Assembly (NCBI RefSeq): GCF_001530125.1
Contig: NZ_LDUG01000019.1
Coordinates: 32,415-96,414 of the forward strand
DNA: 64,000 bases
Origin: Thiobacillus denitrificans
Lineage (GTDB): Bacteria; Pseudomonadota; Gammaproteobacteria; Burkholderiales; Thiobacillaceae
Reading direction: 5' to 3'
Position numbers and translations under genes: made by a program. The notes below the pieces were generated by a model. It was not told the origin of the DNA. It saw only the letters and a list, made by a program, of their open reading frames with translations, and searched no databases. Position 1 is the stretch's first letter, and every line of letters starts with the position of its first letter. Shown here one piece after another: positions 21,127-57,625 of the stretch.

Positions 21127-21645
21127 ATGCGCACTCGTTTTCTTGCCGTATTCGGAGTCGTACTGAGCACGTTGCTGCTGTCCGCACCCGTCAGCCGGGC
21201 CGCGGAACCCAAGGCCACCCAGTCGACGCAGGCCGACGTTTACAAGGTGGCCGTCGATCGCGGCGTCAGCATGGCGGACGCGGCCGAATCGATGCGCCTG
21301 CGTGCCAATGCCTTGAACCTGCAGCTGGTGGCCGAGCTGCCGCTGTCGAAACAGGTGGAAGCCGTCACCGGTCAGCCACAGCGCACCATCACCATCTTCC
21401 AGTTTTGCGACGCCGTCACGGCCAAGGAACTGATCGACGTGAATCTGGATTTCGCCGTGTTCATGCCGTGCCGCATCGCCCTGATCGAGGACGCCAGCGG
21501 CCAGGGCTGGCTGGTGATGATGGATGTCAACGTCGATGCAATCGCGCAGGAAATGCGCGTGCCGCAGGTGCTGAAAGACCGCATTAACGCGGTGCGCAAT
21601 TCGCTGCTCGAGATTATGCAGGCGGGGGCCAAGGGCGAACTGTAA
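21127..21645 (+). CDS. Exported DUF302 protein
   Basis: A 172-residue protein with a cleavable signal (about residues 1-25, ending SRAAEP). A DUF302 domain follows, with IFQFCDAVTAKELIDVN and the characteristic FAVFMPCRIALIEDASGQGW. DUF302 proteins are common in sulfur oxidisers, but their biochemistry is not settled; the single conserved Cys in MPCRI is a plausible functional residue. The Shine-Dalgarno AGAAGGAGA is strong, suggesting high expression. Two more DUF302 domains are encoded near ttrSR at 45.8-47.3 kb. Confidence 0.85.
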   Translation: MRTRFLAVFGVVLSTLLLSAPVSRAAEPKATQSTQADVYKVAVDRGVSMADAAESMRLRANALNLQLVAELPLSKQVEAVTGQPQRTITIFQFCDAVTAKELIDVNLDFAVFMPCRIALIEDASGQGWLVMMDVNVDAIAQEMRVPQVLKDRINAVRNSLLEIMQAGAKGEL

Positions 21646-43626: not shown

Positions 43627-45459
43627 TTAGTGGCGCCGGGAAGAACCAAAGTAATTGAGGTCGGCGCGCGAGCGGCGGGAAAGTTCGAACCGCGCCGCCT
43701 CGGTGCCGCTGAACTGCCCGGCGAGCTGGCCATACACCTCGGTCGCCCAGACCTTGTCGTTGAGCGCATCGGCGATGCCTTCGGCCCAGCGCAGCTTGTC
43801 GGCGGGTTTGCTCAGATGCGTGCCGCACTCGGCATACCACTTCTTCAGCGTCTCGACCGGCAGGGCAAAGCCCTTCAGGCGGTCGATGAACTGGATGCAG
43901 GCGTCGCCGTTGGGGCAGGCGGCCGCGGCTGCGGCAAAGTATTCATCGGCCTTGGCGCTGTTACCCATGGCGGCGTACAGGCGGCCGATGTGGGTCAGCG
44001 CAAAGTGATCCTTGGCCTGGGCGCGTGCGGCTTCCAGCAGGCGGTCGGCTTCGGCCGCATCCCGCGTCGCGGCAAAGCTCGCCTCGGCGAGTTTTGCGAG
44101 GTCGTACACCGTGGCATTGGCATCCGCCGCCAGCGCCGCTTCGCGCATGGCGAGGTAGGTGCGCGCCTTGGACACGCCGAGTTCGCGGTGATGCAGCTGC
44201 GCGGCGGTGACCACCAGATCCTTGAAGGCGATGAAGTCGGTGGCGTTTTCCGCCGCGCGATCGAGCAGGCGGGAGAGCCAGTCGGTGTCGTCCAGGTTTT
44301 TGTCCACCGCCAGCAGGATCGGCTTGTAGCGCGAGAACTGGTAGCCGGTGCCGTCGAGCAGGGTCTCCGCGGCCTCGATCAGCTTGGCGGAATAGAACGG
44401 GTCTTCCAGTTCCAGCCGCACGCGTTCGGCCAGCGCGAGGAATTGCTTGACGCTGACGGCGTCCTTTTCCAGTTGCTGAAATTCCATGTAGCGCACGTGG
44501 TTGGCCTGGCGCTTCTCCAGCTTGACCTTCACCCGGGCCAGGCGCTCGGCGTCGTCGGCCAGATGTGCTTCAACTGCGGCCACCAGCCTGTACATCTCGT
44601 CCAGTCCGGCCACTGCTTCCTCGGCCTTATCCAGCAGCGCCGTGGCGCCCGGCTTGTCGCCCACGCTTGCCAGCCCCTCGGCCAGTTCGATGTATTCACC
44701 GGTGGCGGTGGCCAGGTCGCCCGCCTTTTTCAGCGCGGTTTGCATGAAGGCGGCATCCCCCGTCTGCCTGGCTGATTCGATCAATGTTTTTGCAGCGGCG
44801 AAGTCGGTCGCGCCTTCGAGTGCGCGTTGATACAGCGCTTTGGCTTTTTGCGGATCGCCCAGCGTCTTGGTCACCTCGCCTGCCAGCGCCAGCAGGTCGG
44901 GCACGCTGGAGAGCTTCTCCGCCGCCTTGTTGAAAATCGCTTCCGCGTAATCCTTGTCCAGCAGGTGCTCGGCCGAGGCGGCCGCCAGCTTGCTGTATTC
45001 CACCGCGCGCGAGATTTTTGCCTCGGCCTTTTCCAGCACCTTCTTGGCGAACGCGCCATCGGCGATCACGCGCATCACGTCCTTCGCCAGGTCGATCAGC
45101 GGGTCGAGGTTGTTGGTTTCCTTCAGCGCCTTTTCATAGGCGCCCACTGCCGCCGCCTTGTCGCCCAGCACCTTGAACTTGGCCTCGGCCAGCGCGACCT
45201 GCTCCTCGCCGCTCATGCAGTAGTCTTCCGCGGTCTGCAGCAGTTCCTCGGCGCGGTCCTGCTCGCCCAGTGCCTTGTAGACAATGGCGCACGCCGCCAG
45301 ATCCTTGGTGAACTGGCAGTCGTCCGCCACGCGGTCCATCAGTTCCTTGGCGTAGGCCGCGTCTGCGGGTTCCTGCAGGGCTTGCAGCGCCAGCGCGGCA
45401 TAATCGGCGCCGCCGCTGCATTGGGCTTCTTTGGGGGTGAGGGTGTCGCGGGTGGCCAT
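43627..45459 (-). CDS. Large helical-repeat (TPR/Sel1-like) protein of unknown function
   Basis: A 610-residue soluble, Ala-rich protein made of about 15 degenerate helix-turn-helix repeats. Examples are KALGEQDRAEELLQTAEDYC and TKTLGDPQKAKALYQRALEG. No enzymatic motif, signal peptide or membrane helix is visible. Such solenoids usually mediate protein contacts. The start at 45459 is chosen for the GGAGA upstream and because the repeats begin there; the frame is open to 45636 without features. I do not recognise the family. Confidence 0.75.
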   Translation of the reverse strand: MATRDTLTPKEAQCSGGADYAALALQALQEPADAAYAKELMDRVADDCQFTKDLAACAIVYKALGEQDRAEELLQTAEDYCMSGEEQVALAEAKFKVLGDKAAAVGAYEKALKETNNLDPLIDLAKDVMRVIADGAFAKKVLEKAEAKISRAVEYSKLAAASAEHLLDKDYAEAIFNKAAEKLSSVPDLLALAGEVTKTLGDPQKAKALYQRALEGATDFAAAKTLIESARQTGDAAFMQTALKKAGDLATATGEYIELAEGLASVGDKPGATALLDKAEEAVAGLDEMYRLVAAVEAHLADDAERLARVKVKLEKRQANHVRYMEFQQLEKDAVSVKQFLALAERVRLELEDPFYSAKLIEAAETLLDGTGYQFSRYKPILLAVDKNLDDTDWLSRLLDRAAENATDFIAFKDLVVTAAQLHHRELGVSKARTYLAMREAALAADANATVYDLAKLAEASFAATRDAAEADRLLEAARAQAKDHFALTHIGRLYAAMGNSAKADEYFAAAAAACPNGDACIQFIDRLKGFALPVETLKKWYAECGTHLSKPADKLRWAEGIADALNDKVWATEVYGQLAGQFSGTEAARFELSRRSRADLNYFGSSRRH

Positions 45460-45786: not shown

Positions 45787-46836
45787 ATGCTGACGCGTCT
45801 ACTGGTTGTCACCTTGCTTGCCGGGCTAGGCCTGTCCCCGGCCTTGGCCGCGCCGGACGGTGCGAAACTGTACGGGCGCAACTGCGCCGCCTGCCACGGC
45901 GAGACCGGCACCGGCGGCATCGGTGTGCCGCTGGCGCTGCCCTCGTTCCAGGCCGGGATCAGCGACGACTATTTGCGCAAGACCATACGCCTCGGCCGGC
46001 CGGGGCGGGTGATGCCGTCGTTTGACCATCTGGACAAGGCCGAAATCGAGGCCATCGTCCGCCATGTGCGTGGCTGGAACAAGGGTCCGGCGGCCACCTA
46101 TTCCACGCGGCCGGTGAAGGGCGATCCGGTGCACGGCAGGCAGCTGTTCGGGCAATACTGCGCCGCCTGCCACGGCGCCAACGGCGAAGGCAGCAAGGGC
46201 ACCGGCGTCACCTTTTCGCGTCCGCGCGATTTGTCCATCATGGCGCCCGCGCTGCACAACCCCGGCTTCCTCGCCGCGGCCACCGACGCCATGATCAAGG
46301 CCACGCTGATGCACGGCCGGAAAGGCACGCCGATGACCTCTTTCCTCAAACAGGGGCTGAAGGAAAAGGACATCGACGATATCGTCAGCTACGTGCGCAG
46401 TTTCGAGAAGCAGCCCTTGCCGGAAAGCGCACAGGTACTGGACGTGGAAAGTCCGGTGATCGTCCGCGATTCTTCCTACGACCTGAAAACCACGGTGGAA
46501 AACGTGAAGCAGGCGGTGACCACCAACAATTTCTTCTACGGCCGGGTGCAGACGCTCGAGTATGGGCTGATCGAGCCGGCCCGGGAAAACCCGAAACAGG
46601 TCATCGTCTACTTCTGCAACATCAGCCTGCTCAACCAGGCGCTGGCCGTCGATCCGCGCGTGGGCATGTTCCTGCCCTGCCGCATTACCATCCTGGAGCG
46701 GGACGACGGCAAGGTGCAGGTGATGTCGGTCAACCCCAAGGTGTTGAGCCGGCTGTTCAACAACGCCGAGCTGAATCGCCTGTGCGAACAGATGAGCGAA
46801 AGTTATACCCGGATCATGGAGGAGGCGACGATATGA
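45787..46836 (+). CDS. Dihaem cytochrome c fused to a DUF302 domain
   Basis: A 349-residue exported protein. A signal peptide (LTRLLVVTLLAGLGLSPALA) is followed by two class I cytochrome c domains with CAACH at 33-37 and 125-129. Possible Met ligands are in GRVMPSFDHL and GTPMTSFL. The C-terminal third (about 235-340) is a DUF302 domain with VIVYFCNISLLNQAL and GMFLPCRITILERDDG. It should carry electrons in the periplasm. It overlaps the next DUF302 gene by 4 bases (ATGA) and lies upstream of ttrSR on the same strand. The fusion suggests DUF302 acts directly in redox chemistry; that is inference. Confidence 0.9.
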   Translation: MLTRLLVVTLLAGLGLSPALAAPDGAKLYGRNCAACHGETGTGGIGVPLALPSFQAGISDDYLRKTIRLGRPGRVMPSFDHLDKAEIEAIVRHVRGWNKGPAATYSTRPVKGDPVHGRQLFGQYCAACHGANGEGSKGTGVTFSRPRDLSIMAPALHNPGFLAAATDAMIKATLMHGRKGTPMTSFLKQGLKEKDIDDIVSYVRSFEKQPLPESAQVLDVESPVIVRDSSYDLKTTVENVKQAVTTNNFFYGRVQTLEYGLIEPARENPKQVIVYFCNISLLNQALAVDPRVGMFLPCRITILERDDGKVQVMSVNPKVLSRLFNNAELNRLCEQMSESYTRIMEEATI

Positions 46837-47291
46837 ACACGCTGATGAAATGGATGGCTGCCGTCGGACTGCTGCTGGCGACGATCGCACCCGCGGCGGC
46901 GGCGGACCTGCTCATGGTACGGGTGGACAAGCTGTTTCCGGAGGCGATGGCCCAGTTGCAAAGTGCCATTTCGTCACGCGGCTACACCGTCACGCGTCTG
47001 CAGGAAGTGAACGAAAACCTGGAGCGGCGCGATTTCAAGAGCGACATGTACCGCGTGGTCTATTTCGGCAAGTACGAGGAGGTGAAGCGGGCGACCGCCA
47101 GCCATCCCACCCTGATCCCTTTTTTGCCCCTGAATATCACGATCTTCGCGGAAGGCGACCAGACCATCGTGGTGGCAAGCCACCCGCAGGCCTTGCGGCG
47201 GCTCTTTCCGGATGCAACGCTGAAGCCATTGTTTGAACGCTGGGAAAAGGACGTGGTGGCGATCATGGATGACGTGCGCGAAGGCAAATAG
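46833..47291 (+). CDS. Exported DUF302 protein
   Basis: A 152-residue protein with a signal peptide (MKWMAAVGLLLATIAPAAAA) and a DUF302-like domain (LFPEAMAQLQSAISSRGYTV, then LIPFLPLNITIFAEGDQTIV). The Cys of the usual PCRI motif is replaced: FLPLNI here. It is therefore a divergent member that may bind a partner rather than carry the same active Cys. Its ATG overlaps the cytochrome stop, so the two are co-translated. A gap of 141 bases separates it from ttrS. Confidence 0.85.
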   Translation: MNTLMKWMAAVGLLLATIAPAAAADLLMVRVDKLFPEAMAQLQSAISSRGYTVTRLQEVNENLERRDFKSDMYRVVYFGKYEEVKRATASHPTLIPFLPLNITIFAEGDQTIVVASHPQALRRLFPDATLKPLFERWEKDVVAIMDDVREGK

Positions 47292-47432
47292 CTGCGTCTC
47301 CCGGGCGGCGCCCGGCTGGGGCGCTGCCGCCCCTGCGCCCTTCGCGTCCAAGCCGGCAACGCCCTTAAATACTGTACGGAGCGGACGCAAGCGGGAACGA
47401 CGGTTGCGGCACGAATCCAGGGGAAGGGTGGC

Positions 47433-49241
47433 ATGAGCACTGCATCGGTACGCGGACACCACCGGCGGATCCTGTTTCTGGCCGTGCTGGTGGCCGTGCT
47501 GGCGCGCCCTCCCGCGGCCCATGCGCAGGCCGCGCCGCCGGTGCGGATCGGCGTTCTCGCTTTCCTCGGCGTCGAAGTCGCCTTGTCCACCTGGTCCCCG
47601 CTGGTGGCGCATATCGAGGCGTCTTTGCCGGCGCGGCGTGTCGTCCTGACGTATTACGATGTGGCCGGTTTGCGCCAGGCGGTGCAGCAACAGGCGCTGG
47701 ATTTCGTCATCACCAACAGCGGCCAGTATGCGGCCCTGGAATCCGAATTCGGCGTCAGCCGCATCGCCACGCTGGAGTCGCCCGGGGTGCCCTCGCCCTC
47801 GCAGGCTATCGGTTCGGCGGTGATCGTCCGTGCCGACCGGCGCGACCTGAACGTGCTGGCCGACCTCAAGGGCGAGCGGGTGGCCGCCGTCGGCGAGGAT
47901 GCGTTCGGCGGCTTCCAGGTGGCCTGGCGGGAGTTCAGGCGCCAGGGAGTCGAGCCTGGGGATTTCGCGCGCCTCGACTTTGTCGGCTTCCCCATGCCGC
48001 GCATCGTCACGGCCGTGGCCCGTGGCCAAGTCGATGCGGGAATCGTGCGCGCCTGCCTGTTGGAAGATCTGGCGCGGGACGGGGCCATCCGGCTCGCCGA
48101 CTTCAAGGTGCTCTCGCCACGCCAGGTGGAGGGCTTCGCCTGTGGCCTGTCGTCCGATCTCTACCCGGACTGGCCTCTTGCCACCCTGCGCCATACCGAT
48201 CTGCACCTGGCCAAGGCGGTGGCCACGGCGCTGCTGTCGATGCCGGTATCCCCCACAGGCTATGCCTGGACGGTGCCGGCGGATTACCAGGCGGTGCACG
48301 AACTGTTCCGGGATTTGCAGATCGGCCCTTACGCCTATCTGCGCGAGACCACCCTGCAAGCGCTGGCGCGCCGCTACTGGCCGTTCCTGTTGCTTTTTTT
48401 CGCGGCCCTGGCCGGCTGGATCGTGCACGCCGTTCGCGTCGAGCAGCAGGTCCATGCCCGCACGGCGGCGCTACGCCAGGCGCTGGCGCAGCGGGATGCG
48501 GCCGAAGCCGGCATGCGCGCGCACCAGGAACAGTTCGACCATTTGTCCCGCCTGTCGATCCTGGGCGAGTTGTCCGGCACCCTGGCGCATGAATTGAACC
48601 AGCCGCTGGCCGCCATCGCCAACTACGCCCAAAGCCTGGTGCGCCGCCTCGACAGCGGCCGCTACACGCCGGCGATCCTGGCCGAGGCGAGCCGGGAAAT
48701 CGCCGCCCAGGCGGCGCGCGCCGGCGGCATCGTGCACCGCATCCGTGCCTTCGCCCGCAAGCGGGCCGCAGTGCGGGAGCGGCGCCCCCTGGCCGAGCTG
48801 GTTCGGGAGGCCGCCGCCCTGTTCGGCGGCATGCTGCCGGGCGCGCCGCGTATCGACATCGCCGACCGCCTGCCGCCCGGTACGCTGGTCGAGGCGGATA
48901 CCCTGCAGGTGGAGCAGGTGCTGCTCAACCTGCTGAAGAACGCCGCCGATGCCATGCAGGACCTGCCGCCCGCCGAGCGCGCCATCGACGTCACCCTGGA
49001 GCAGGCAGGACACCACTACCGGATTGCCATCCGTGACCAGGGCGTTGGCCTGGCGCCGGCGTCCACGCAGCACCTGTTCGAGCCTTTTTTCACCACCAAG
49101 CCAGACGGCATGGGACTGGGCCTGTCGATCTGCAAGACCATTGTCGAGGCTCACGGCGGACGGCTGTGGGCCGAGGCCCACGCCGACGCACCCGGCATGA
49201 CGTTTATTTTCACCCTGCCCGCCGATGACCCCACCACTTGA
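47433..49241 (+). CDS. ttrS: Tetrathionate sensor histidine kinase TtrS
   Basis: A 602-residue sensor. A signal/anchor is followed by a periplasmic PhnD-like binding domain (VRIGVLAFLGVEVALSTWSP to about residue 300), with TNSGQYAALES and VGEDAFGGFQVAWREF. One transmembrane helix lies at about 312-332. The kinase core has His386 in LAHELNQPLAAI, then NLLKNAADAM, IRDQGVGLA and GMGLGLSICKTIVEAHGG. This architecture matches TtrS of Salmonella. It overlaps ttrR by 17 bases. The ligand is inferred from homology and the nearby ttrBCA. Confidence 0.92.
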   Translation: MSTASVRGHHRRILFLAVLVAVLARPPAAHAQAAPPVRIGVLAFLGVEVALSTWSPLVAHIEASLPARRVVLTYYDVAGLRQAVQQQALDFVITNSGQYAALESEFGVSRIATLESPGVPSPSQAIGSAVIVRADRRDLNVLADLKGERVAAVGEDAFGGFQVAWREFRRQGVEPGDFARLDFVGFPMPRIVTAVARGQVDAGIVRACLLEDLARDGAIRLADFKVLSPRQVEGFACGLSSDLYPDWPLATLRHTDLHLAKAVATALLSMPVSPTGYAWTVPADYQAVHELFRDLQIGPYAYLRETTLQALARRYWPFLLLFFAALAGWIVHAVRVEQQVHARTAALRQALAQRDAAEAGMRAHQEQFDHLSRLSILGELSGTLAHELNQPLAAIANYAQSLVRRLDSGRYTPAILAEASREIAAQAARAGGIVHRIRAFARKRAAVRERRPLAELVREAAALFGGMLPGAPRIDIADRLPPGTLVEADTLQVEQVLLNLLKNAADAMQDLPPAERAIDVTLEQAGHHYRIAIRDQGVGLAPASTQHLFEPFFTTKPDGMGLGLSICKTIVEAHGGRLWAEAHADAPGMTFIFTLPADDPTT

Positions 49242-49854
49242 CCGAGCCTTGATCCATATCGTGGACGACGATGAGGCGCTGCGTCGTTCCCTGGTGTTCC
49301 TGCTCGACTCGGTCGGCTGGCGAACCCAGGCCCACACCAGCGCCGAAGCATTTCTGGCCGCCTACCAACCGGGAGACCCCGGCTGCCTGGTGCTGGACAT
49401 CCGCATGCCCGGCATGAGCGGGCTGGAATTGCAGCAGGTGCTGCGAGCCCAAGGGCGGACGCTGCCGATCATTTTCATCACCGGCCATGGCGATGTCTCC
49501 CTGGCGGTGCAGGCCATGAAGCAGGAAGCCTGCGATTTCCTGGAAAAACCGTTCAGGGATCAGGTGCTGCTGGATGCGGTGACCCAGGCGGTGCGCCGCA
49601 GTTGCCGGGAACTGGCGGCGGAACGGCGCCACGACCAAGCCCATGCGCTACTGGAACGGCTGTCGCCGCGGGAGCGGGAAGTGGCGCTGAGAGTGGCCCA
49701 TGGCCTGCCCAACAAGCTGATCGCGCGGGAACTGGATATCAGCGAAAAGACGGTGCATGTACACCGTCAGCATGTGATGGAGAAAACGCACACCGGTTCC
49801 GCCGCCGAGCTGGCGCGCCTGATGCTGCGCGCCGACCCGGCCGACCTGGATTGA
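49225..49854 (+). CDS. ttrR: FixJ-family response regulator TtrR
   Basis: A 209-residue regulator. Receiver: IHIVDDDEALRRSLVFLLDS, acceptor Asp58 in CLVLDIRMPGMSGLEL, ITGHGDVSLAVQAMK, DFLEKPF. C-terminal LuxR helix-turn-helix: LSPREREVALRVAHGLPNKL to HVHRQHVMEKT. As partner of TtrS it should activate ttrBCA and possibly the cytochrome-DUF302 genes. Unlike Salmonella, the regulatory pair here is convergent with, not adjacent and divergent to, the reductase genes. Confidence 0.93.
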   Translation: MTPPLDRALIHIVDDDEALRRSLVFLLDSVGWRTQAHTSAEAFLAAYQPGDPGCLVLDIRMPGMSGLELQQVLRAQGRTLPIIFITGHGDVSLAVQAMKQEACDFLEKPFRDQVLLDAVTQAVRRSCRELAAERRHDQAHALLERLSPREREVALRVAHGLPNKLIARELDISEKTVHVHRQHVMEKTHTGSAAELARLMLRADPADLD

Positions 49855-50003
49855 GCAGAGGCTGGCGGCCGCCGGTTGGATAGCCACATGGCTGTTTCCA
49901 GGATTTACTACGGCGGAATTTCCACATCCGGACGCAATGCCCATTCCGCAAGGCCATGTCATCCATGTGTTATGCGTCTTCACATTAAACCTGGAAAAAG
50001 CAG

Positions 50004-50129
50004 TTCACCACAGAGACACAGAGAAAACAAGAGCTTGCATCTGCCAGCCGGTTCGCCCATGGGGTGAGTGCCATTCAGCCGATTTTCTCTCGTCGAATCA
50101 ACTCTGTGTCTCTGTGCCTCTGTGGTTCA
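50004..50129. repeat. GAGACACAGAG-type palindromic repeat in the 49855-50142 gap
   Basis: The left arm GTTCACCACAGAGACACAGAG (split as 50004-50024) and right arm CTCTGTGTCTCTGTGCCTC (about 50103-50121) are complementary. The repeat is related to that at 28362-28452. It separates convergent ttrR and the orphan epsilon gene. No gene is seen in this gap. Confidence 0.75.
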
Positions 50130-50142
50130 AGAACTGCTGAAT

Positions 50143-50577
50143 TCAGGTTAAACCCTTCTTGCTGTGGCGCAACTTCTGAATGCCCTGCAGATGCGCAAGC
50201 GCCTTTGCCAGTTCGACCTCCAGCTTTGCGTATTCCATCGCCGTGACGCGGTTTTTCATGGTTTCCTCGGCCTTCCGTTTTTCATCCCATAGATTCCCTT
50301 CCTCCATGGTCTTCTCCCGGATAGCCATGTCGGAAAGAATCGTCACCCCCTGCGGCTGCACCTCCAGCATTCCGCCTGAAACGTAAACCACCTCCTCTTG
50401 CATCTGGTGCGGAATTTTCAGCCGCACGACACCGGGTTTGAGGCGGGCGAGCATCGGCGCATGCCCGGGGTAAATGCCGACCTCGCCCATTTCCGCCGGC
50501 GCAACAACAAACTCCGCCAGGCCGGAAAAGAGCAATTCCTCGATGCTCACTACATCCACATGCATGGTCATTGCCAT
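50143..50577 (-). CDS. atpC: ATP synthase F1 epsilon subunit, isolated copy
   Basis: A 144-residue protein with the complete epsilon beta sandwich (MHVDVVSIEELLFSGLAEFV, GEVGIYPGHAPMLARLKPG, VYVSGGMLEVQPQGVTILSD) and two C-terminal helices. It is of the normal F1 type, not the N-ATPase type. No other atp gene is in the window; a full operon is presumably elsewhere. It lies 31 bases after ttrA on the same strand and may be co-transcribed. No clear Shine-Dalgarno precedes the ATG. Whether it joins the ATP synthase is unknown. Confidence 0.9.
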   Translation of the reverse strand: MAMTMHVDVVSIEELLFSGLAEFVVAPAEMGEVGIYPGHAPMLARLKPGVVRLKIPHQMQEEVVYVSGGMLEVQPQGVTILSDMAIREKTMEEGNLWDEKRKAEETMKNRVTAMEYAKLEVELAKALAHLQGIQKLRHSKKGLT

Positions 50578-50608
50578 GGGCTAGCCCGTTTAGCCACGAT
50601 CAGTCCCG

Positions 50609-53600
50609 CTAGGCGCGCGCGACCGTGGCTGGCAGGCCGTTGCGCACCGAGGTGCCCGAGACCGCGTCCACCCACACCGACTTGCCCTGGCGGGTCGGAT
50701 CCGCCAGCCCCAGGTCGTTGAGGTTGACCCCGGCGCCGATGGCCGGCACCTCGGGCTGGCGCGCCTCGCCGATGCGGTGCGCGCGGGCGCCCAGTTCCTT
50801 GTGGCCGAAGCCGTGCTCGACCGCCAGCACGCCGGGCATCACCCCGGCATGCACGATCACGCGGCTACGCACGCTGCCGCCGGGGGTGCGGATCACGGCG
50901 GCATCGCCGCTTTCCAGCCCGAAGCGGGCCGCATCCGCCGGATGCATCAGCACCGGGTTCTCCGGGTGGATGCCGCGCAGCCGCGAGGCGGCGATGGAGT
51001 AGGAGTTCTGCAGCGCCGACTTGAAGCTGACCAGTTGCAGCGGCCAGTCGGCCTCCGGGTAAAGCGTGCGCATCGGCGTGCCGTCGGCGAACACCGGCTC
51101 GGTCCAGGTGGCGCAGCCGGTGAAGCGTTTGCCGGTGATGCTGTTTTTCGCCGCGCCCAGGTTTTCGTTGTAGATCTGCAGGCCATTGTCGTAGCGGTGG
51201 GTCATCCATTCCGGGTTGTCCTCGCTGTAGGTTTCCTTGGCGGGCTGGTAGCGCCCGCCGCGGGCGAGGATGAAGGCCACCTTGCGCACCTCCTCCGGCT
51301 TCAGGGTGCGTTCCAGCAACGGCCGCAGGCGTTCGACGCCGGACAGCAGAATGTCCTCGTCGCTGGCGTCTGCCACCGGTTCCTTGCCGAGCCAGGCGAT
51401 GTTCGCGCCGCCCCGCAGATACCAGTCTTCCGGCCGCTCCAGCGGGTAGGTGTTGCCCTCCATGTCGGCGATGGCGCCGGGGCCGAAGCCGGGCAGCGCC
51501 ATGGCACGGGCCAGGGCGATGAAGAAGGTCTCCATGCCGATCGCCTGGCCGTCCGCCAGCTTCTCCGCCTTCGGCTCCACCACCGGCCAGCGCGCGGTGC
51601 TGGCCTTGGTCGGCACCGCGCCCCAGGCCGAGGCCCAGCCCCAGCTCTCATACAGCAGCGAGTCGGGCACGATGTAGTCGGCGAAGGCATTGCTCTCGTT
51701 GATGAGCGGATCGATGGAAACAATCAGCGGAATCTTTTTCGGATCCATCAGATCTTTTTCCACCTGCGCGCGCACGCCCGGGATGCCGTACACCGGGTTG
51801 GCGCTCCACAGGAACAGCGCCTTGATGCCATAGGGATAGCCGTTGGCGGCCCCGGTCAGCCATTCGGTGGCCAGGCCGGGCGCGTTGGGGAACCACGGCG
51901 CTTGGGCTGGATAAGCCTTGCCCGCCGCCTTTTTCGCGGCGAATTCGGCGGTTTTCTCGTACGGCGCGTTGCGTCCCAGCGGCATACCGGCGGGTTTTTC
52001 GATCATGCCGGGGAAGCTTTCCAGGTTGTAGCGCGGACCGGCACCGGCATCCTTGAAGCCGCCGCCGTTCATGCTGAGCCCGCCTTTCCAGTTCAGGTTG
52101 CCGATCAGCGCGTTCAGGGTCACCACGCCGTAGGCGTTGTAGAAACCGTTGCCGGCCATCATGCCGCCGTGGGCGACCGCCGCCGCGCGCTTGCCGTGGC
52201 TGGAAAATTCCTTCGCCAGGGCGGCGATGGTCTGCGCCGGAATGCCGCAGGCGGCGGCGTATTCGTCCGGGCTGTGGAGGAAAGCCTGCTCGCGCAGCAG
52301 TTGCAGCGAGGATTTGACCTGAAGCGGCTGGCCGCCGGCCTCGACCACGCCGCCCACGAACAGTTGCGCCGACATGGTGGCCTTGTCGTGAAATACGGTC
52401 TTGTCCTCGGCGTTGAGCACCACGAAGGGGTCGTTTTCCTTGTAGCGCTCCTCCTCGGCGAGTACCAGCCCCAGGTCGGAGCCGCGCAAGAAACGGCCCT
52501 GGCGCGGATGGCCGGGCTCGACGACGACCAGGTGGGTAGCGTTGCTCCAGGACGGCTCGCCGGCCGCCTTCGCCACCGTCATGTTGGGGTGGGCGAGATA
52601 GTTTGCGTCGTAGCGCTGGTTTGCGAACAGCCAGCGCATCATGCCCATCACCAGCGCGCCGTCGGTGCCGGGCTTGATGGGAATCCAGCGCCCGCGCTCG
52701 CCGACGGCCATGTTGTCGGCGTTGGTCAGAACCGGGTCCACCACCACGTAATTCAGCTTGCCCTCGGTGCGGCCCTGGGCCAGCAGCGCCCCTTGCCGCT
52801 TGAACGGATTGCCCGCGTTGGCGGGCGCGGTGCCGATGAAGAGCGCAAATTCCGTGTTGGCGAAATCCGGCTTGCCGTGAGGCATTTTTTTCATGTCGCC
52901 GAACAGCGCGCCGGAGCCGGAACGGTAAGCGCCGCCGCAGTAGGAGCCGTGGCCGACAAAGTTCAGCGTGCCGTATGCCTGTTGCATGAAACGCTTGCCG
53001 AAGGCCAGACGGCCGTCGTTGACGCTGGTGATGAGGGCCACCTGATTCACTTTCGGACCCAGTTCCGGGCGCTGCGGGTCGATCGGGGTGGCCAGGTCGC
53101 GCAGGGCCTTCAGGCCCTCGACCGGGCCTTCCCCGAACAGGTCGCCGCCTTCCGTCAATTCCCGTATCAACTGTTCGAACGGGATTGGTTCCCAGCGCCC
53201 CGAATTGCGCGGACCCACCCGCTTCATCGGGCGCAATACCCGGAACGGCGAGTCCATCTGCTCGAGCACCGCGTTGCCGCGGCCGCAGGCGGTGGAGCGC
53301 CCCGCCAGGCCCTTGTCCTGGAAACCGGAAATGGCGACGAAACTGTCCCGGATCGACGCCTTCATCGGCAGGTGCGGCTCGGTGGACAGCGGGCTGTACG
53401 GGTTGCCGGCGACGCGCAGCACCTTGCCGCTGGCACGGTCGATGCGCACCCGCACGCCGCACAAAGTGGTGCAGCCGAGGCACATGGTGTAGCTCACCTG
53501 CTGCGCGGGGTTCACCTTCAGCGTCCCGGTTGCCGGATCGATGTTGAACTCGGGTTCGAGGGAGGCGCCGTGATACTGGCTCTTCGACTTGTCGCGGCCC

Positions 53601-53701
53601 AGCAGGGGCTTGAGCATGCGCTCGGCGGTGGCGCTGAAGCCGGCACTGAAGGCGATCAGGCCGCCGGCGGCGAGAATCTTGCGACGGGTGTTAATGGTCA
53701 T
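50609..53701 (-). CDS. ttrA: Tetrathionate reductase catalytic subunit TtrA
   Basis: Molybdopterin-guanine-dinucleotide enzyme that reduces tetrathionate to two thiosulfates in the periplasm. The 1030-residue protein has an N-terminal twin-arginine-type signal (NTRRKILAAGGLIAFSAG). A 4Fe-4S site uses Cys74, Cys77, Cys81 and Cys139 (CLGCTTLC and TACGRGN). The likely Mo ligand is Cys256 in GHGSYCGGAYRSGSGAL. GGDLFGEGPVEGL and NATHLVVVEP match Salmonella TtrA closely. AAGGAGA precedes the start. Order is ttrB-ttrC-ttrA, as in Salmonella. Confidence 0.94.
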   Translation of the reverse strand: MTINTRRKILAAGGLIAFSAGFSATAERMLKPLLGRDKSKSQYHGASLEPEFNIDPATGTLKVNPAQQVSYTMCLGCTTLCGVRVRIDRASGKVLRVAGNPYSPLSTEPHLPMKASIRDSFVAISGFQDKGLAGRSTACGRGNAVLEQMDSPFRVLRPMKRVGPRNSGRWEPIPFEQLIRELTEGGDLFGEGPVEGLKALRDLATPIDPQRPELGPKVNQVALITSVNDGRLAFGKRFMQQAYGTLNFVGHGSYCGGAYRSGSGALFGDMKKMPHGKPDFANTEFALFIGTAPANAGNPFKRQGALLAQGRTEGKLNYVVVDPVLTNADNMAVGERGRWIPIKPGTDGALVMGMMRWLFANQRYDANYLAHPNMTVAKAAGEPSWSNATHLVVVEPGHPRQGRFLRGSDLGLVLAEEERYKENDPFVVLNAEDKTVFHDKATMSAQLFVGGVVEAGGQPLQVKSSLQLLREQAFLHSPDEYAAACGIPAQTIAALAKEFSSHGKRAAAVAHGGMMAGNGFYNAYGVVTLNALIGNLNWKGGLSMNGGGFKDAGAGPRYNLESFPGMIEKPAGMPLGRNAPYEKTAEFAAKKAAGKAYPAQAPWFPNAPGLATEWLTGAANGYPYGIKALFLWSANPVYGIPGVRAQVEKDLMDPKKIPLIVSIDPLINESNAFADYIVPDSLLYESWGWASAWGAVPTKASTARWPVVEPKAEKLADGQAIGMETFFIALARAMALPGFGPGAIADMEGNTYPLERPEDWYLRGGANIAWLGKEPVADASDEDILLSGVERLRPLLERTLKPEEVRKVAFILARGGRYQPAKETYSEDNPEWMTHRYDNGLQIYNENLGAAKNSITGKRFTGCATWTEPVFADGTPMRTLYPEADWPLQLVSFKSALQNSYSIAASRLRGIHPENPVLMHPADAARFGLESGDAAVIRTPGGSVRSRVIVHAGVMPGVLAVEHGFGHKELGARAHRIGEARQPEVPAIGAGVNLNDLGLADPTRQGKSVWVDAVSGTSVRNGLPATVARA

Positions 53702-53711
53702 GACATTCTCC

Positions 53712-54797
53712 TTAGGCCTGGGCGCGGCGCTGGCCGGCCCAGGGCAGTACTGAGATCAGCAGGATCAGGACGGCGATCCACAGGCCGGCGGTGCCGACGA
53801 TGCCGAGTAGCCCGTCCTGGCCCAGGGGCAGGTGGTAGTCGTAGAAGCCGGCGCTGGTTTTGGGGATTTGCTGGCCGCCGATAAATATCGTCCAGCGCAT
53901 CATCCAGGCGCTGTGCAGGGCGATCAGGCCGGCTGCCAGCCGCCATTCCGGATGCCGAACGGCGAGCCAGAGTGTGGCCAGGGCGCTGCCGGCGGCCCAC
54001 ACCGCGGTGATCCGCCAGGCGGCCGAGGGGGCCACTTGCGCCAGCGCCTCCGCGTGTCGCGGGGACAAGCCGGTGACACCCAGCAGCAGCCAGGCGGCGC
54101 CCACCGCCAGCACCAGCACCTGGGTCGCCGCCAACAGGCGCAGCAGATGGGTGCCTTCCGCCGCGCGGCCGTCGCCGATGGCGCGGTCCAGCACCAGCAC
54201 CAGACCGATGGCGCCGGCCACCGCGGTGATGAAGAACTGCACCGGCAGGAAGGGCGTGTCCCACAATGGCCGGGCGCTCACCACCATCACTTCCATGCCG
54301 GTGTAGAGCGCCACCAGCGCGGCGCCGGCCAGGGCGAGCACGGCGGCGATGCGGGTCGCGCCCAGACTGTCGTGGCCGCCGTAGGCAAACGCCCGGTAGA
54401 TGCCCGCCCCGCGCCCGCCGATGTCGGCCAGGCGCTTCAGATCCGGGCGCAACACCAGCCAGGCATAGAGCGCCAGCCCACCCAGGTAGAGGGGGATGAA
54501 GAAGGCACCCCAGGCCATCCAGGAGCCGAGATTGGGGTGCAGGTAGAAATTGAGGAAACGGGCGGGCTGGTGCAGATCTGCGAGCAGGGCCACGGGCGCC
54601 GTCAGGCCGCAGGCCAGCGCGCCCAGCAGGGCCAGGCGGCTGGCCCGTTCCCAGGCGGGTCGGCGCAGCACGAACCAGGGTAGGGTGAGCAGAAAACAGC
54701 CCACCGACAGACCGATCAGGAAAAAGTACTGGACCGCCCAGGGCAGCCACGACACTTCGCGGGCCACGTTGACGACTTCGACAATGGATGTGTTCAT
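53712..54797 (-). CDS. ttrC: Tetrathionate reductase membrane subunit TtrC (NrfD family)
   Basis: A 361-residue inner-membrane protein with about nine transmembrane helices. It starts MNTSIVEVVNVAREVSWLPW, typical of NrfD/PsrC-type quinol dehydrogenases. Features include FYLHPNLGSWMAWGAFFIPLY and VMVVSARPLWDTPFLPVQFF. It passes electrons from quinol to TtrB. It starts 2 bases after the ttrB stop and ends 10 bases before ttrA. Confidence 0.92.
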   Translation of the reverse strand: MNTSIVEVVNVAREVSWLPWAVQYFFLIGLSVGCFLLTLPWFVLRRPAWERASRLALLGALACGLTAPVALLADLHQPARFLNFYLHPNLGSWMAWGAFFIPLYLGGLALYAWLVLRPDLKRLADIGGRGAGIYRAFAYGGHDSLGATRIAAVLALAGAALVALYTGMEVMVVSARPLWDTPFLPVQFFITAVAGAIGLVLVLDRAIGDGRAAEGTHLLRLLAATQVLVLAVGAAWLLLGVTGLSPRHAEALAQVAPSAAWRITAVWAAGSALATLWLAVRHPEWRLAAGLIALHSAWMMRWTIFIGGQQIPKTSAGFYDYHLPLGQDGLLGIVGTAGLWIAVLILLISVLPWAGQRRAQA

Positions 54798-54799
54798 GA

Positions 54800-55540
54800 T
54801 TAAGCTCCGTGCTCACTCGGCCGCCACAAGGCGCCCTGGCCCTCGACGCGCCCCTGGAAACGGGGATCGAGGCCGATGTAAAAAACGTTGGGGCGGGCGC
54901 CGGATTCGGGCTTGAGCACCTTGATGGCGTCCGCCTCCTTGGCGGCGTCCAGCCTGCGTCGCAGCTCGCCTTTGGGGTCGTTCAGGTCGCCGAAGATGCG
55001 GGCACCGCCGACGCAGGTTTCGACGCAGGCCGGCAGCAGGCCCGCGTCGACCCGGTGCGCACAGAAGGTGCACTTGTCGGCCTTGCCCGTGTCGTGATTG
55101 ATGAACCGGGCGTCGTAAGGGCAGGCCTGAACGCAGTAGGCGCAGCCCACGCAGCGGTAGCCGTCCACCACCACGATGCCGTCATCGCGTTTGAAGGTGG
55201 CGTTTACCGGGCAGACCGGCACGCAGGGCGGATTGTCGCAATGGTTGCACAGACGCGGCAGCACGTAGGTGCCGGCCACGGTTTTGCCGTCCACCTCCTG
55301 CGTGACCGTGTAAGTGGAGACGATAGTGCGGAAGCTGTTCTCCGGCACCGCGTTTTCCATGATGCAACTGACGGTGCAGGCCTGGCAGCCGATGCACTTG
55401 CGTACATCCACCAGCATTGCCCAATGGTGTTTGCCTTCGGCGGCACTGGCGGTGTTCATGGGCAGCGCCACACCGGCGGTGATCGCCGGTAACGCCTGCA
55501 GAAAGGCGCGGCGGGATTGGAAAAGTGTATCGTCGGACAT
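54800..55540 (-). CDS. ttrB: Tetrathionate reductase iron-sulfur subunit TtrB
   Basis: A 246-residue ferredoxin-like subunit. It has a Tat signal with SRRAFLQ (residues 9-15) and several 4Fe-4S motifs: CIGCQACTVSC, CDNPPCVPVCP, CVGCAYCVQACPY, and later CTFC. These give the usual four-cluster wire between TtrC and TtrA. The first gene of the operon, with AAGGAG 7 bases ahead of the ATG. Confidence 0.94.
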   Translation of the reverse strand: MSDDTLFQSRRAFLQALPAITAGVALPMNTASAAEGKHHWAMLVDVRKCIGCQACTVSCIMENAVPENSFRTIVSTYTVTQEVDGKTVAGTYVLPRLCNHCDNPPCVPVCPVNATFKRDDGIVVVDGYRCVGCAYCVQACPYDARFINHDTGKADKCTFCAHRVDAGLLPACVETCVGGARIFGDLNDPKGELRRRLDAAKEADAIKVLKPESGARPNVFYIGLDPRFQGRVEGQGALWRPSEHGA

Positions 55541-55601
55541 GGTCGGACTCCTTATCGAGCGTGCACTTGTAGACTAAGCGCACCAAAACCATGCCGCCAG
55601 T

Positions 55602-55618
55602 GGGTAGATTGCCTACCC
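55602..55618 (-). promoter_or_regulatory. Inverted repeat upstream of ttrB
   Basis: A perfect repeat GGGTAG-N5-CTACCC about 65 bases upstream of the ttrB start. Location and symmetry suit a TtrR operator; no binding consensus is known to me for this organism. Confidence 0.45.
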
Positions 55619-55719
55619 GACTAGGTATTTGTATTTAGCAACCGTTTGAAACATTCGCGCAACTGGCCGGCTCGCCCGGCGTATCTGTGTCGAGCGCCGG
55701 CGGGCGTGCCGGGTACCAT

Positions 55720-56253
55720 TCAATGCTTCGCCGGATGCGGCATCAGCTTGTCGATGTACGCAATCGCCACCGCCGATACGATGAAGGCCATGTGGATGAC
55801 GGTCTGCCACAGCAGGACTTTTTCATCCAGGTTGGGGGCGTTGATGAAGGTCTTCAGCAGGTGGATCGACGAGATGCCGATGATGGCGGTGGCGAGTTTG
55901 ACTTTCAGCACGTTGGCGTTGACGTGCGACAGCCACTCGGGTTCGTCGGGGTGGCCTTCGAGCCTCAAGCGCGAGACGAAGGTTTCATAGCCGCCGATGA
56001 TGACCATGATGAGCAGGTTGGAAATCATCACCACGTCGATCAGGCCCAGCACGATGAGCATGATGGCTTCTTCGGAGAGGGTGAAGGTGCCGACGACGAG
56101 GTGCTCGAGCTCGATCATGAAGTGAAAGACGTAGACCACTTGCGCGGCGATCAGGCCGAGATACAGCGGGACTTGCAGCCAGCGGCTGCCGAACAGGATG
56201 GTGGAAAGAAATTTGCCGCGGGTTTCGATGGGTTGCTTGGTTTCAGGGTTCAT
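55720..56253 (-). CDS. UPF0114 / YqhA family inner-membrane protein
   Basis: A 177-residue protein with about four transmembrane helices (roughly 22-42, 57-80, 105-125, 140-160). Family motifs include [17 protein letters not shown] and [28 protein letters not shown]. The function is unknown. The start at 56253 gives the family N-terminus; the frame is open into the hslU 3' region without features. It is the last gene of hslV-hslU-UPF0114. Confidence 0.92.
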
Positions 56254-56302
56254 AAATAGATTTAAAGTGGGAGGACAGAGACGAAACGCTAAAAGCGAAG
56301 GG

Positions 56303-57625
56303 TTACAGGACGTAGCGCGCCAGGTCTTCGCGGGCGGCGAGCGCGGCCAGCCGCGTGGTGACCGCGTCGGCGTCGACCACGTGTTCACCGGTGACGCTGC
56401 CGGCGTCGAAGGAAATCTCCTCCAGCAGCTTTTCCATCACCGTGTGGAGGCGGCGCGCGCCGATGTTTTCGGTGCGCTCGTTGACCTCGAAGGCGATCTC
56501 GGCAAGGCGGCGAATGCCGTCTTCGGTGAATTTGAGGGTGACGCCCTCGGTCGCCAGCAGGGCTTCGTACTGGCGCGTCAGGCAGGCGTCGGTGGCGGTC
56601 AGGATCTGCTCGAAATCTTCCACCGAGAGCGCCTGCAGCTCGACGCGGATCGGCAGCCGCCCCTGCAGCTCGGGGATGAGGTCGGACGGCTTGGACAGGT
56701 GGAACGCGCCGCTGGCGATGAACAGGATGTGGTCGGTTTTCACCATGCCGTACTTGGTCGAGACGGTGGTGCCCTCGATCAGCGGCAACAGGTCGCGCTG
56801 CACGCCCTGGCGCGACACGTCGCTGCCCTGCGCGTCGCTGCGGGTGGCGATCTTGTCGATTTCGTCGAGGAACACGATGCCGTTCTGCTCCACCGCCTCG
56901 AGCGCCTGCTGCTTGGTTTCCTCGTCGTTGATCAGGCGCCCGGCTTCTTCCTCGGTCAGCAGCTTGAACGCTTCGCGCACTTTCAGCTTGCGGGCTTGCC
57001 GGCGGCTTTGCCCGATGTTCTGGAACATGCCCTGCAGCTGCTGCGACAGGTCTTCCATCCCCGGCGGGGTGAAGATTTCCATGCTGGGGCTGACCGCCGC
57101 GACCTCGATCTCGATTTCCTTGTCGTCCAGTGCGCCTTCGCGCAGCATCTTGCGGAAGCGTTGGCGCGCCGCGCCTTCCTCGCGCTGCGGTTCGGACTCG
57201 CCCAGGCCGACGCTGCGCGGCGGCGGCAGCAGCGCGTCGAGGATGCGATCCTCGGCGGCTTCTTCGGCACGGAACTGTACCTTGGACGTGGCCTGTTCGC
57301 GCATCTGCTTGACCGCGGTTTCCATCAGGTCGCGGATGATGGTGTCGACGTCGCGGCCCACATAGCCGACTTCGGTGAACTTGGTCGCCTCGATCTTGAT
57401 GAAGGGCGCGTTGGCGAGCCGCGCCAGGCGCCGCGCGATCTCGGTCTTGCCGACCCCGGTGGGGCCGATCATCAGGATGTTCTTCGGCGTGATTTCCTGT
57501 CGCAGCGGCTCATCGACCTGCTGGCGCCGCCAGCGGTTACGCAGGGCGACCGCGACCGCGCGCTTGGCGGCAGCCTGGCCGACGATGTGTTTGTCGAGTT
57601 CGTGGACGATTTCTTTGGGCGTCAT
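56303..57625 (-). CDS. hslU: ATP-dependent protease ATPase subunit HslU
   Basis: AAA+ unfoldase that feeds substrates to HslV. The 440-residue protein starts [20 protein letters not shown]. Walker A is [15 protein letters not shown], Walker [12 protein letters not shown], and the C-terminus is LARYVL, as required for HslV activation. The I-domain is at about 110-240. It follows hslV across a repeat-filled gap. Confidence 0.97.

Follow-up and report, generated by a model that had tools for sequence, protein, structure and literature searches.

In Thiobacillus denitrificans, a tetrathionate-reductase-type locus lies beside two genes encoding DUF302 proteins, one of them fused to a dihaem cytochrome c. 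Do these two genes serve the tetrathionate system, or do they form a unit of their own that happens to lie next to it? The original prediction tied the fusion to ttrSR and ttrABC as a periplasmic electron carrier. Within the window, by which we mean the whole stretch of 64,000 nucleotides analysed, all seven genes that it named are open reading frames at the positions predicted, and their order was confirmed: the fusion, second DUF302, ttrS-like and ttrR-like genes lie on the forward strand, and ttrB-ttrC-ttrA-like genes converge on them from the reverse strand. The locus comprises the following features.

43627..45459, − strand: left flank, encoding a weakly TPR-matching protein and kept next to the pair in Thiobacillus
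45787..46836, + strand: fusion protein, 349 aa, with a signal-peptide-like N-terminus (by eye), two class-I c-type haem domains and a C-terminal DUF302 domain (Pfam, structure model)
46833..47291, + strand: second DUF302 protein, 152 aa, with a signal-peptide-like N-terminus (by eye) and without the cysteine pair (Pfam, Foldseek)
47284..55718, strand not applicable: lineage-specific block (ttrSR-like, atpC-like and ttrACB-like genes) between the pair and UPF0114
47433..49241, + strand: ttrS-like sensor kinase with a phosphonate-binding-type periplasmic domain (Pfam, NCBIfam)
49225..49854, + strand: ttrR-like (FixJ-type) response regulator (Pfam, NCBIfam)
50143..50577, − strand: ATP synthase epsilon subunit, the genome's second copy, downstream of ttrA (Pfam, NCBIfam)
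50609..53701, − strand: ttrA-like molybdopterin catalytic subunit (Pfam, NCBIfam)
53712..54797, − strand: ttrC-like NrfD-type membrane subunit (Pfam, NCBIfam)
54800..55540, − strand: ttrB-like iron-sulfur subunit with 16 cysteines (Pfam, NCBIfam)
55720..57625, − strand: right flank, UPF0114 and an AAA ATPase (hslU by eye), adjoining the pair in four Thiobacillus relatives

The ATP-synthase epsilon gene between ttrR and ttrA was missing from the original prediction, as was a third DUF302 gene elsewhere in the window (21127-21645, + strand, 45 bits). Rfam and tRNA scans of the whole window found nothing.

The pair and its tetrathionate neighbours

The best NCBIfam models for the TtrA, TtrB, TtrC and TtrS proteins were the tetrathionate ones, scoring 1222, 339, 200 and 310 bits against equivalog cut-offs of 1750, 416, 314 and 750, respectively; the TtrA, TtrB and TtrC matches were near full-length, at these scores below the equivalog cut-offs. 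For the response regulator, FixJ matched best (224, cut-off 255) and TtrR second (170, cut-off 290). Twin-arginine-like N-termini were noticed by eye among the ttrA-, ttrB- and ttrC-like genes. Eight other genomes had a TtrS match above 480 bits, five of them with a TtrA match within 7 kb on one contig (a fragment in G122) and the remaining three with no TtrA above 500 bits; four genomes with TtrA (G045, G093, G133 and G138) had no TtrS match at E ≤ 1e-70.

Adjacency in the window suggests that the pair could be devoted to TtrABC/TtrSR, as their electron carrier or as a sensor partner. In four Thiobacillus metagenome-assembled genomes (MAGs), however, the pair lies between the same flanks without the ttr block; homology ends at window position 47283 and restarts at 55719, and the two junctions are 54 bp apart in locus L024. 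No relative of TtrA at E ≤ 1e-50 was found in those four MAG genomes or in T. thioparus DSM 505, nor any TtrA, TtrB or TtrC at E ≤ 1e-20 in 137 stretches fetched around the fusion (1.70 Mb; 34 of the stretches are under 6 kb and some stem repeatedly from one genome). Among these stretches, TtrSR stood beside the fusion only in L049, a near relative in which the pair and ttrSR-like genes are likewise adjacent, but where the latter are followed by PhnC, PhnD, PhnE and a phosphite-dehydrogenase relative rather than by ttr genes. TtrA matches above 500 bits were commoner in fusion carriers of the order sample (5/13 versus 5/137, p = 4e-4, kinship ignored), which would favour a link; among the 13 carriers, TtrA lay on the fusion's contig in the window genome only, the other genomes being fragmented. 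Of the five genomes with TtrS near TtrA, three have the fusion on another contig and two lack it.

In other lineages, the neighbours of the pair were mostly housekeeping or signalling genes (67 distinct loci, up to ten neighbour positions each). Ten representatives checked against Pfam comprised a GGDEF protein, a class-I adenylate cyclase, a pyrC-like amidohydrolase, a carboxylesterase, a HAMP/GGDEF/EAL protein, a MazG-like protein, RsmI, UPF0102, a PLP-dependent decarboxylase and DUF4010/MgtC, with no sulfur-linked gene among them. The search across genomes that the original prediction had proposed, for DUF302 fusions next to ttr, returned no conserved linkage, and the fusion genes are variously placed as regards ttr, the outcome it had named as telling against itself. 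Its tie between the fusion and ttrSR/ttrABC is contradicted by the four Thiobacillus MAGs, the five TtrA-free genomes and the 137 stretches. Membership of the ttr locus is already largely refuted by placement, and we consider it very improbable; the pair was rejected as a ttr member on synteny, TtrA-free relatives (n = 5) and fusion surroundings free of TtrABC. Its position beside tetrathionate genes is peculiar to the window lineage.

Haem sites, cysteines and a constant partner

Pfam assigned Cytochrome_CBB3 (7e-24), Cytochrom_C (1e-21) and DUF302 (PF03625, 1e-11) to the fusion, the last at 45 bits against a cut-off of 23. The following residues were compared across 73 genomes.

45883..45897, + strand: haem site 1, CAACH, residues 33-37 (C33, C36 and H37 in 73/73)
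46012..46014, + strand: Met76 (GRPGRVMP), likely sixth ligand of haem 1 (M in 73/73)
46159..46173, + strand: haem site 2, CAACH, residues 125-129, from sequence (C125 and C128 in 72/73 with one gap; H129 in 73/73)
46333..46335, + strand: Met183, likely sixth ligand of haem 2 (M in 73/73)
46615..46617, + strand: Cys277 of the DUF302 domain (FCN; 71/73), the same Cys as in 1J3M and 1Q9U
46678..46680, + strand: Cys298 of the DUF302 domain (LPC; 69/73), the same Cys as in 1J3M and 1Q9U
46783..46785, + strand: Cys333 in the C-terminal helix (63/73), absent from the two solved DUF302 relatives

Each cytochrome domain has the CxxCH motif and conserved Met of class-I c-type cytochromes, and both haems are probably of His/Met type; AlphaFold models contain no haem, and the Met ligand positions were read from the sequence. 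The fusion appears to be exported, judging by eye from its N-terminus. In Foldseek searches with the AlphaFold model, the DUF302 part matched 1q9u and 1j3m, and the haem part was closest, by sequence as well as by structure, to CcoP and other dihaem electron carriers. The CN...LPC cysteine pair of the fusion is kept in these two solved proteins and also in the genome's three other full DUF302 proteins, with a shift in one copy.

The second DUF302 protein has lost this cysteine pair. Its DUF302 score of 22.1 bits falls slightly under the Pfam threshold (23), but nearly all sequences in its family alignment hit DUF302 at E ≤ 0.01 (29 of 30), and a search with its model retrieved solved DUF302 structures (1q9u, E = 1.7e-9; also 1j3m). 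In the window, the two genes overlap by 4 bp, as they do in 46 of the 71 loci with a called fusion (67 distinct loci). In all 71, the second gene lies 3′ of the fusion on the same strand, and by open frames alone the arrangement held in 105 of 106 loci, the exception (L014) running out at a contig edge. The pairing therefore recurs far beyond chance.

Sulfur-oxidation genomes and a proposed role

The fusion was present in 61 of 369 genomes of the class sample, in carriers spanning 34 families, and 44 of the 272 genera sampled have the two-gene unit; carrier lineages include Thiobacillus, Sulfuriferula and Thiogranum. Most carriers are sulfur-oxidation genomes, as the original prediction of a sulfur context had held: 57/61 have soxB and/or dsrA. 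In the class sample, soxB (E ≤ 1e-120) occurred in 56/61 carriers versus 93/308 others (p = 5e-20, kinship ignored) and dsrA (E ≤ 1e-80) in 48/61 versus 69/308 (p = 1e-16, kinship ignored). The order sample gave the same picture, with soxB over the cut-off in 13/13 carriers versus 58/137 others (p = 3e-5, kinship ignored) and dsrA (E ≤ 1e-50) in 11/13 versus 18/137 (p = 1e-7, kinship ignored). Of the 104 genomes of the class that have soxB as well as dsrA, 57 lack the fusion, so it is not required for the pathway.

Four carriers have neither soxB nor dsrA, and three of these keep the unit with haem sites intact. In the same three carriers, aprA over the cut-off is also absent, which adds little because three soxB-positive genomes (G238, G275 and G320) likewise lack it. 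The cysteine pair is broken in four of the 73 genomes, three of them among the four soxB/dsrA-less carriers (Fisher p = 2.5e-4, post hoc); G132, by comparison, carries soxB and dsrA although its C298 and C333 are lost. On the tree, these losses are three changes, two coinciding with sulfur-gene loss, and independent pairs gave no significance. We have dropped cysteine loss as proof of a sulfur role on these grounds and regard it as a hint of one.

We propose, with a probability of roughly 0.5, that 45787-47291 is a self-contained two-gene unit, mainly of sulfur-oxidising members of the class and outside the tetrathionate system, that acts as a periplasmic sulfur-electron module. Both proteins would be periplasmic and may form a DUF302-DUF302 heterodimer, in which one side bears the cysteine pair and the other is structural or lies on the substrate side. 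The cysteines would react with a sulfur compound or with sulfur bound to a protein (thiol, persulfide or thiosulfonate); the two His/Met haems could then relay the electrons to an acceptor of high potential, for example a cbb3 oxidase.

A plainer role is possible, if somewhat doubtful: the dihaem part may shuttle electrons from Sox or another dehydrogenase to an oxidase, with the DUF302 pair as a docking or dimerising device and its cysteines structural (a disulfide or metal site). Haem residues are indeed better conserved than the DUF302 cysteines across the 73 genomes and remain in soxB/dsrA-less carriers, and the haem part is similar to CcoP and to the dihaem subunits of actinobacterial bc1; against this, DUF302 proteins that stand alone, without a cytochrome, keep the cysteine pair, the partner subunit lacks it, and a plain carrier leaves the constant second DUF302 protein unexplained. 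It is unlikely that the unit is a sensor of redox state or microoxia, or a maturation factor, whose DUF302 cysteines would sense thiol or metal (copper) state while the haems report to or serve oxidase assembly. GGDEF/EAL genes lie nearby in some lineages, but no signalling or assembly gene accompanies the pair across them, and the sulfur co-occurrence would be left unexplained; the similarity to CcoP fits such a role, as does a DUF302 gene beside fixG/ccoG, both of which appear in a differential-expression table for Bradyrhizobium (PMC6515984).

The tempting ttr link thus gives way to a much broader two-gene unit associated with Sox and Dsr. As the original prediction anticipated, the fusion gives DUF302 a testable redox context, a dihaem cytochrome with probable His/Met haems in mostly sulfur-oxidation genomes. 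The domain shares its polypeptide with its likely electron acceptor, its cysteines are conserved, its partner is constant and some carriers are natural cysteine-less variants, so that the role of DUF302 becomes testable by spectrophotometer. In a more specific and rather speculative version, the pair would be an unrecognised sulfur dehydrogenase of Thiobacillus and its allies, linked to c-type cytochrome, the DUF302 cysteine site oxidising thiosulfate or a sulfane intermediate and the haems removing the electrons. T. thioparus DSM 505 has the pair (L029), and the passage of PMC5248467 on its genome states that no tsdA was found; if this version were true, the enzyme converting thiosulfate to tetrathionate that this strain ought to have could be the pair, as a candidate, and action on thiosulfate would fill that gap.

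Comparison with known systems

The window's neighbouring genes are of the TtrABC/TtrSR kind, in an arrangement that differs in having ttrSR and ttrBCA convergent and a copy of atpC behind ttrA; the pair itself is outside that system. By sequence, the fusion comes closest to CcoP and further dihaem cytochromes of class I, which share its two CxxCH domains, but it carries a DUF302 tail and scores 74 bits against the CcoP cut-off of 180. TsdA thiosulfate dehydrogenase is also a dihaem cytochrome of sulfur oxidisers; its haem 1 has Cys as sixth ligand, and it is not known to carry DUF302. The fusion model matched it weakly (Foldseek, E = 4.8e-3, TM 0.22), and the fusion has an invariant Met at both haems, where TsdA has Cys at haem 1; membership of the TsdA family was rejected on this ligand pattern, read from the sequence, and the weak fold match.

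Solved DUF302 proteins (PF03625; TT1751, 1J3M; APC35924, 1Q9U) have the fold and CN...LPC cysteine pair in common with the fusion, which alone has the dihaem cytochrome, a third cysteine (C333) and a cysteine-less DUF302 partner. A cytochrome-DUF302 fusion is not described in the literature passages on DUF302 that we examined. Relevant passages of PMC5037610 and PMC5248467 report that soxA and soxB flank a DUF302 gene in Acidithiobacillia and Thiohalorhabdus, encoding a protein of 191 aa inside sox in T. tepidarius, and propose that it takes part in periplasmic trithionate or polythionate oxidation. The window pair differs from this sox-locus DUF302 in its cytochrome fusion, its own partner gene and its surroundings, but both occur in sulfur oxidisers.

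The DUF302 pair and the ttr-like block

All seven genes put forward in the original prediction are present as described, by sequence and by matches to domain and family models:

45787..46836 (+), fusion protein of 349 aa: two class-I c-type haem domains and one C-terminal DUF302 domain
46833..47291 (+), second DUF302 protein of 152 aa, its gene start overlapping the end of the fusion gene by 4 bp
47284-55718, ttr-like block: ttrS- and ttrR-like genes (+), then an atpC-like gene (not one of the seven) and ttrA-, ttrC- and ttrB-like genes (-)

Taken alone, the second DUF302 protein scores 22.1 bits against a Pfam DUF302 cut-off of 23, and 29 of 30 members of its family match DUF302 at E<=0.01. 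Tetrathionate models best describe the ttr genes, yet their scores lie below the equivalog cut-offs, and no match reached the TtrA cut-off in 150 genomes of the order, 104 of which gave one at E<=0.001, so we use the cautious name 'ttr-like'. The placing of TtrS near TtrA elsewhere backs this naming in part: a TtrA match lies within 7 kb of TtrS relatives in genomes G014, G047, G122 (a fragment), G134 and G145, and TtrS was absent at E<=1e-70 from four TtrA-bearing genomes (G045, G093, G133, G138). Directly downstream of ttrA, at 50143-50577 (-), lies an ATP synthase epsilon subunit gene, complete and additional to the genome's other copy on contig C18 (169 bits here, 205 bits there), with no further ATP synthase gene among the called genes around it.

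The fusion and second DUF302 gene, originally assigned to the tetrathionate reductase locus, are not part of it. Four Thiobacillus MAGs (loci L020, L023, L024, L031) carry DUF6866-TPR-like-[fusion-DUF302]-UPF0114-hslU-hslV-STAS, the window's order minus 47284-55718 (hslU and hslV named by eye, from AAA and proteasome-type matches). DNA homology with the window stops at 47282-47283 and restarts at 55719; the ends of the two homology blocks are only 54 bp apart in L024, a gap that favours gain of the block in the window's lineage over loss in others. No TtrA relative was found at E<=1e-50 in these four genomes or in T. thioparus DSM 505, and none of TtrA, TtrB and TtrC at E<=1e-20 in 137 regions surrounding the fusion that add up to 1.70 Mb (some genomes repeated, 34 regions under 6 kb), among which only L049 holds TtrS and TtrR orthologues. 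Among 150 genomes of the order, TtrA exceeded 500 bits in 5/13 fusion carriers vs 5/137 non-carriers (p 4e-4, kinship ignored); it shares the fusion's contig in one of the 13, the window's genome, the other genomes being in pieces.

L049 is the nearest relative, its fusion 91% identical to the window's. The ttrSR-like genes are kept there (L049:11582-18357; 92-94% identical), followed by PhnC, PhnD and PhnE and a protein that, among solved structures, is closest to phosphite dehydrogenases. TtrS carries a phosphonate-type binding domain, which bears on what the kinase senses beside these phn genes. The same genome (G515) holds, outside the L049 stretch, a partial TtrA (contig C64:272362-273838; split over two frames, with residues 1-150 and 156-512) that is 87-89% identical to the window's, with no match to the second half.

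Conservation of the pair and its residues

What is conserved is the pair. Among the 80 listed of 406 confirmed relatives, at least 34 loci encode the fusion through the DUF302 end (L048 and L050 incomplete at contig edges), the match in the remainder being limited to the cytochrome part. Gene calling on 75 loci recovered the fusion in 71 (missed in L042, L148, L169 and L178), and all 71 (67 distinct) have the second DUF302 gene adjacent on the same strand, with the 4-bp overlap in 46. Open frames place it beside the fusion in 105 of 106 loci (76 distinct fusions), the exception, L014, being truncated where its contig stops; by genome the count is 72/73, and the exception (G135) is the same case. 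Surroundings vary between lineages and repeat within them: hslU/UPF0114, amidohydrolase-RsmI-mraZ, prfB-DUF4010 or adenylate cyclase-decarboxylase (mraZ and prfB identified by eye).

The two CxxCH motifs persist across 73 genomes, with a single gap at the second, and neither Met76 nor Met183 varies, a residue pattern as expected for two His/Met haems. The fusion's DUF302 cysteines are kept in 71 (C277), 69 (C298) and 63 (C333) of the 73; solved stand-alone DUF302 proteins (1J3M, 1Q9U) have cysteines aligned with C277 and C298, and the window genome's three other full DUF302 proteins also carry such a pair, the second cysteine being shifted two positions in the copy on contig C27 (ungapped reading). 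The second DUF302 protein has no cysteine at the matching positions in 77 distinct sequences (L014 entry excluded), four of which have a mature cysteine elsewhere, in columns of the window protein. Predicted models show the DUF302 fold in both fusion and second protein (pLDDT 81 and 89), fusion residues 136-152 being poorly modelled. By fold, the DUF302 models also resemble chains of PDB 7tj1 (Foldseek 1e-8, second DUF302 protein), whose title, putative CrcB fluoride transporter, looks wrong for such a fold.

Sulfur-oxidation genes and a proposed mechanism

In the order sample (13 carriers in 150 genomes, kinship ignored) soxB was over cut-off in 71/150 genomes, among them all 13 carriers, and dsrA (E<=1e-50) in 29/150, including 11 of the 13; dsrA is absent from G047 and G091, and in G014 it is in pieces and below the cut-off. 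In the class sample (soxB E<=1e-120, dsrA E<=1e-80) the fusion occurs in 61/369 genomes and 44/272 genera (table).

Sulfur-oxidation genes in the class sample, kinship ignored
Group: soxB; dsrA; either
Carriers (n=61): 56; 48; 57
Non-carriers (n=308): 93; 69; 105

Carrier G204 has dsrA and no soxB; G360, G460, G464 and G483 (the last only 75% complete) have neither, and lack aprA over cut-off, as do the soxB-positive G238, G275 and G320. The link is not a tight one: of the 104 genomes in which soxB and dsrA occur together, 57 have no fusion.

Four carriers no longer have an intact C277-C298 pair: G132, where soxB and dsrA are both present, and G464, G360 and G460, which have neither. The pair is thus lost in 3/4 carriers without these genes vs 1/69 others (post hoc p 2.5e-4). 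A tree built from the cytochrome part counts the losses as three changes, two with sulfur genes absent; an independent-pairs test cannot reach significance. Haem residues are intact in all four. Taken as no more than a hint, these variants point to a role for the cysteines in sulfur chemistry and to a cytochrome still of use where that chemistry is missing.

The pairing, the co-occurrence, the conserved haem and cysteine residues and the one member without a cysteine pair are observed directly. We propose that both proteins may be exported (their N-termini are signal-peptide-like by eye) and would form a heterodimer, in which a sulfur or thiol substrate would act at the fusion's DUF302 cysteines and electrons would flow through two high-potential haems. 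That the dihaem part is a simple electron carrier, the DUF302 pair docking or dimerising it, is a less probable reading; the haem sites kept by carriers without soxB or dsrA speak for it, and the cysteine pair conserved in stand-alone DUF302 proteins that have no cytochrome speaks against it.

DUF302 proteins elsewhere

The window's genome has six DUF302 matches in total. A third in the window, at 21127-21645 (+), scores 45 bits, with a cysteine pair FCD...MPC and a signal-peptide-like N-terminus (by eye). Locus L124 (G000:C12) has two matches 3 kb apart, near 7752-7898 and 10875-11270: one is a full gene, the other a fragment similar to the end of that gene, perhaps a decayed copy.

Passages on DUF302 in papers from a full-text search, most subscription papers being outside its scope, contain no description of the cytochrome-DUF302 fusion. 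A differential-expression table lists a DUF302 gene adjoining fixG (PMC6515984). The genome paper of T. thioparus DSM 505 reports six DUF302 proteins outside sox, with tsdA absent (PMC5248467), and another paper notes DUF302 within sox clusters and speculates on periplasmic trithionate oxidation (PMC5037610).
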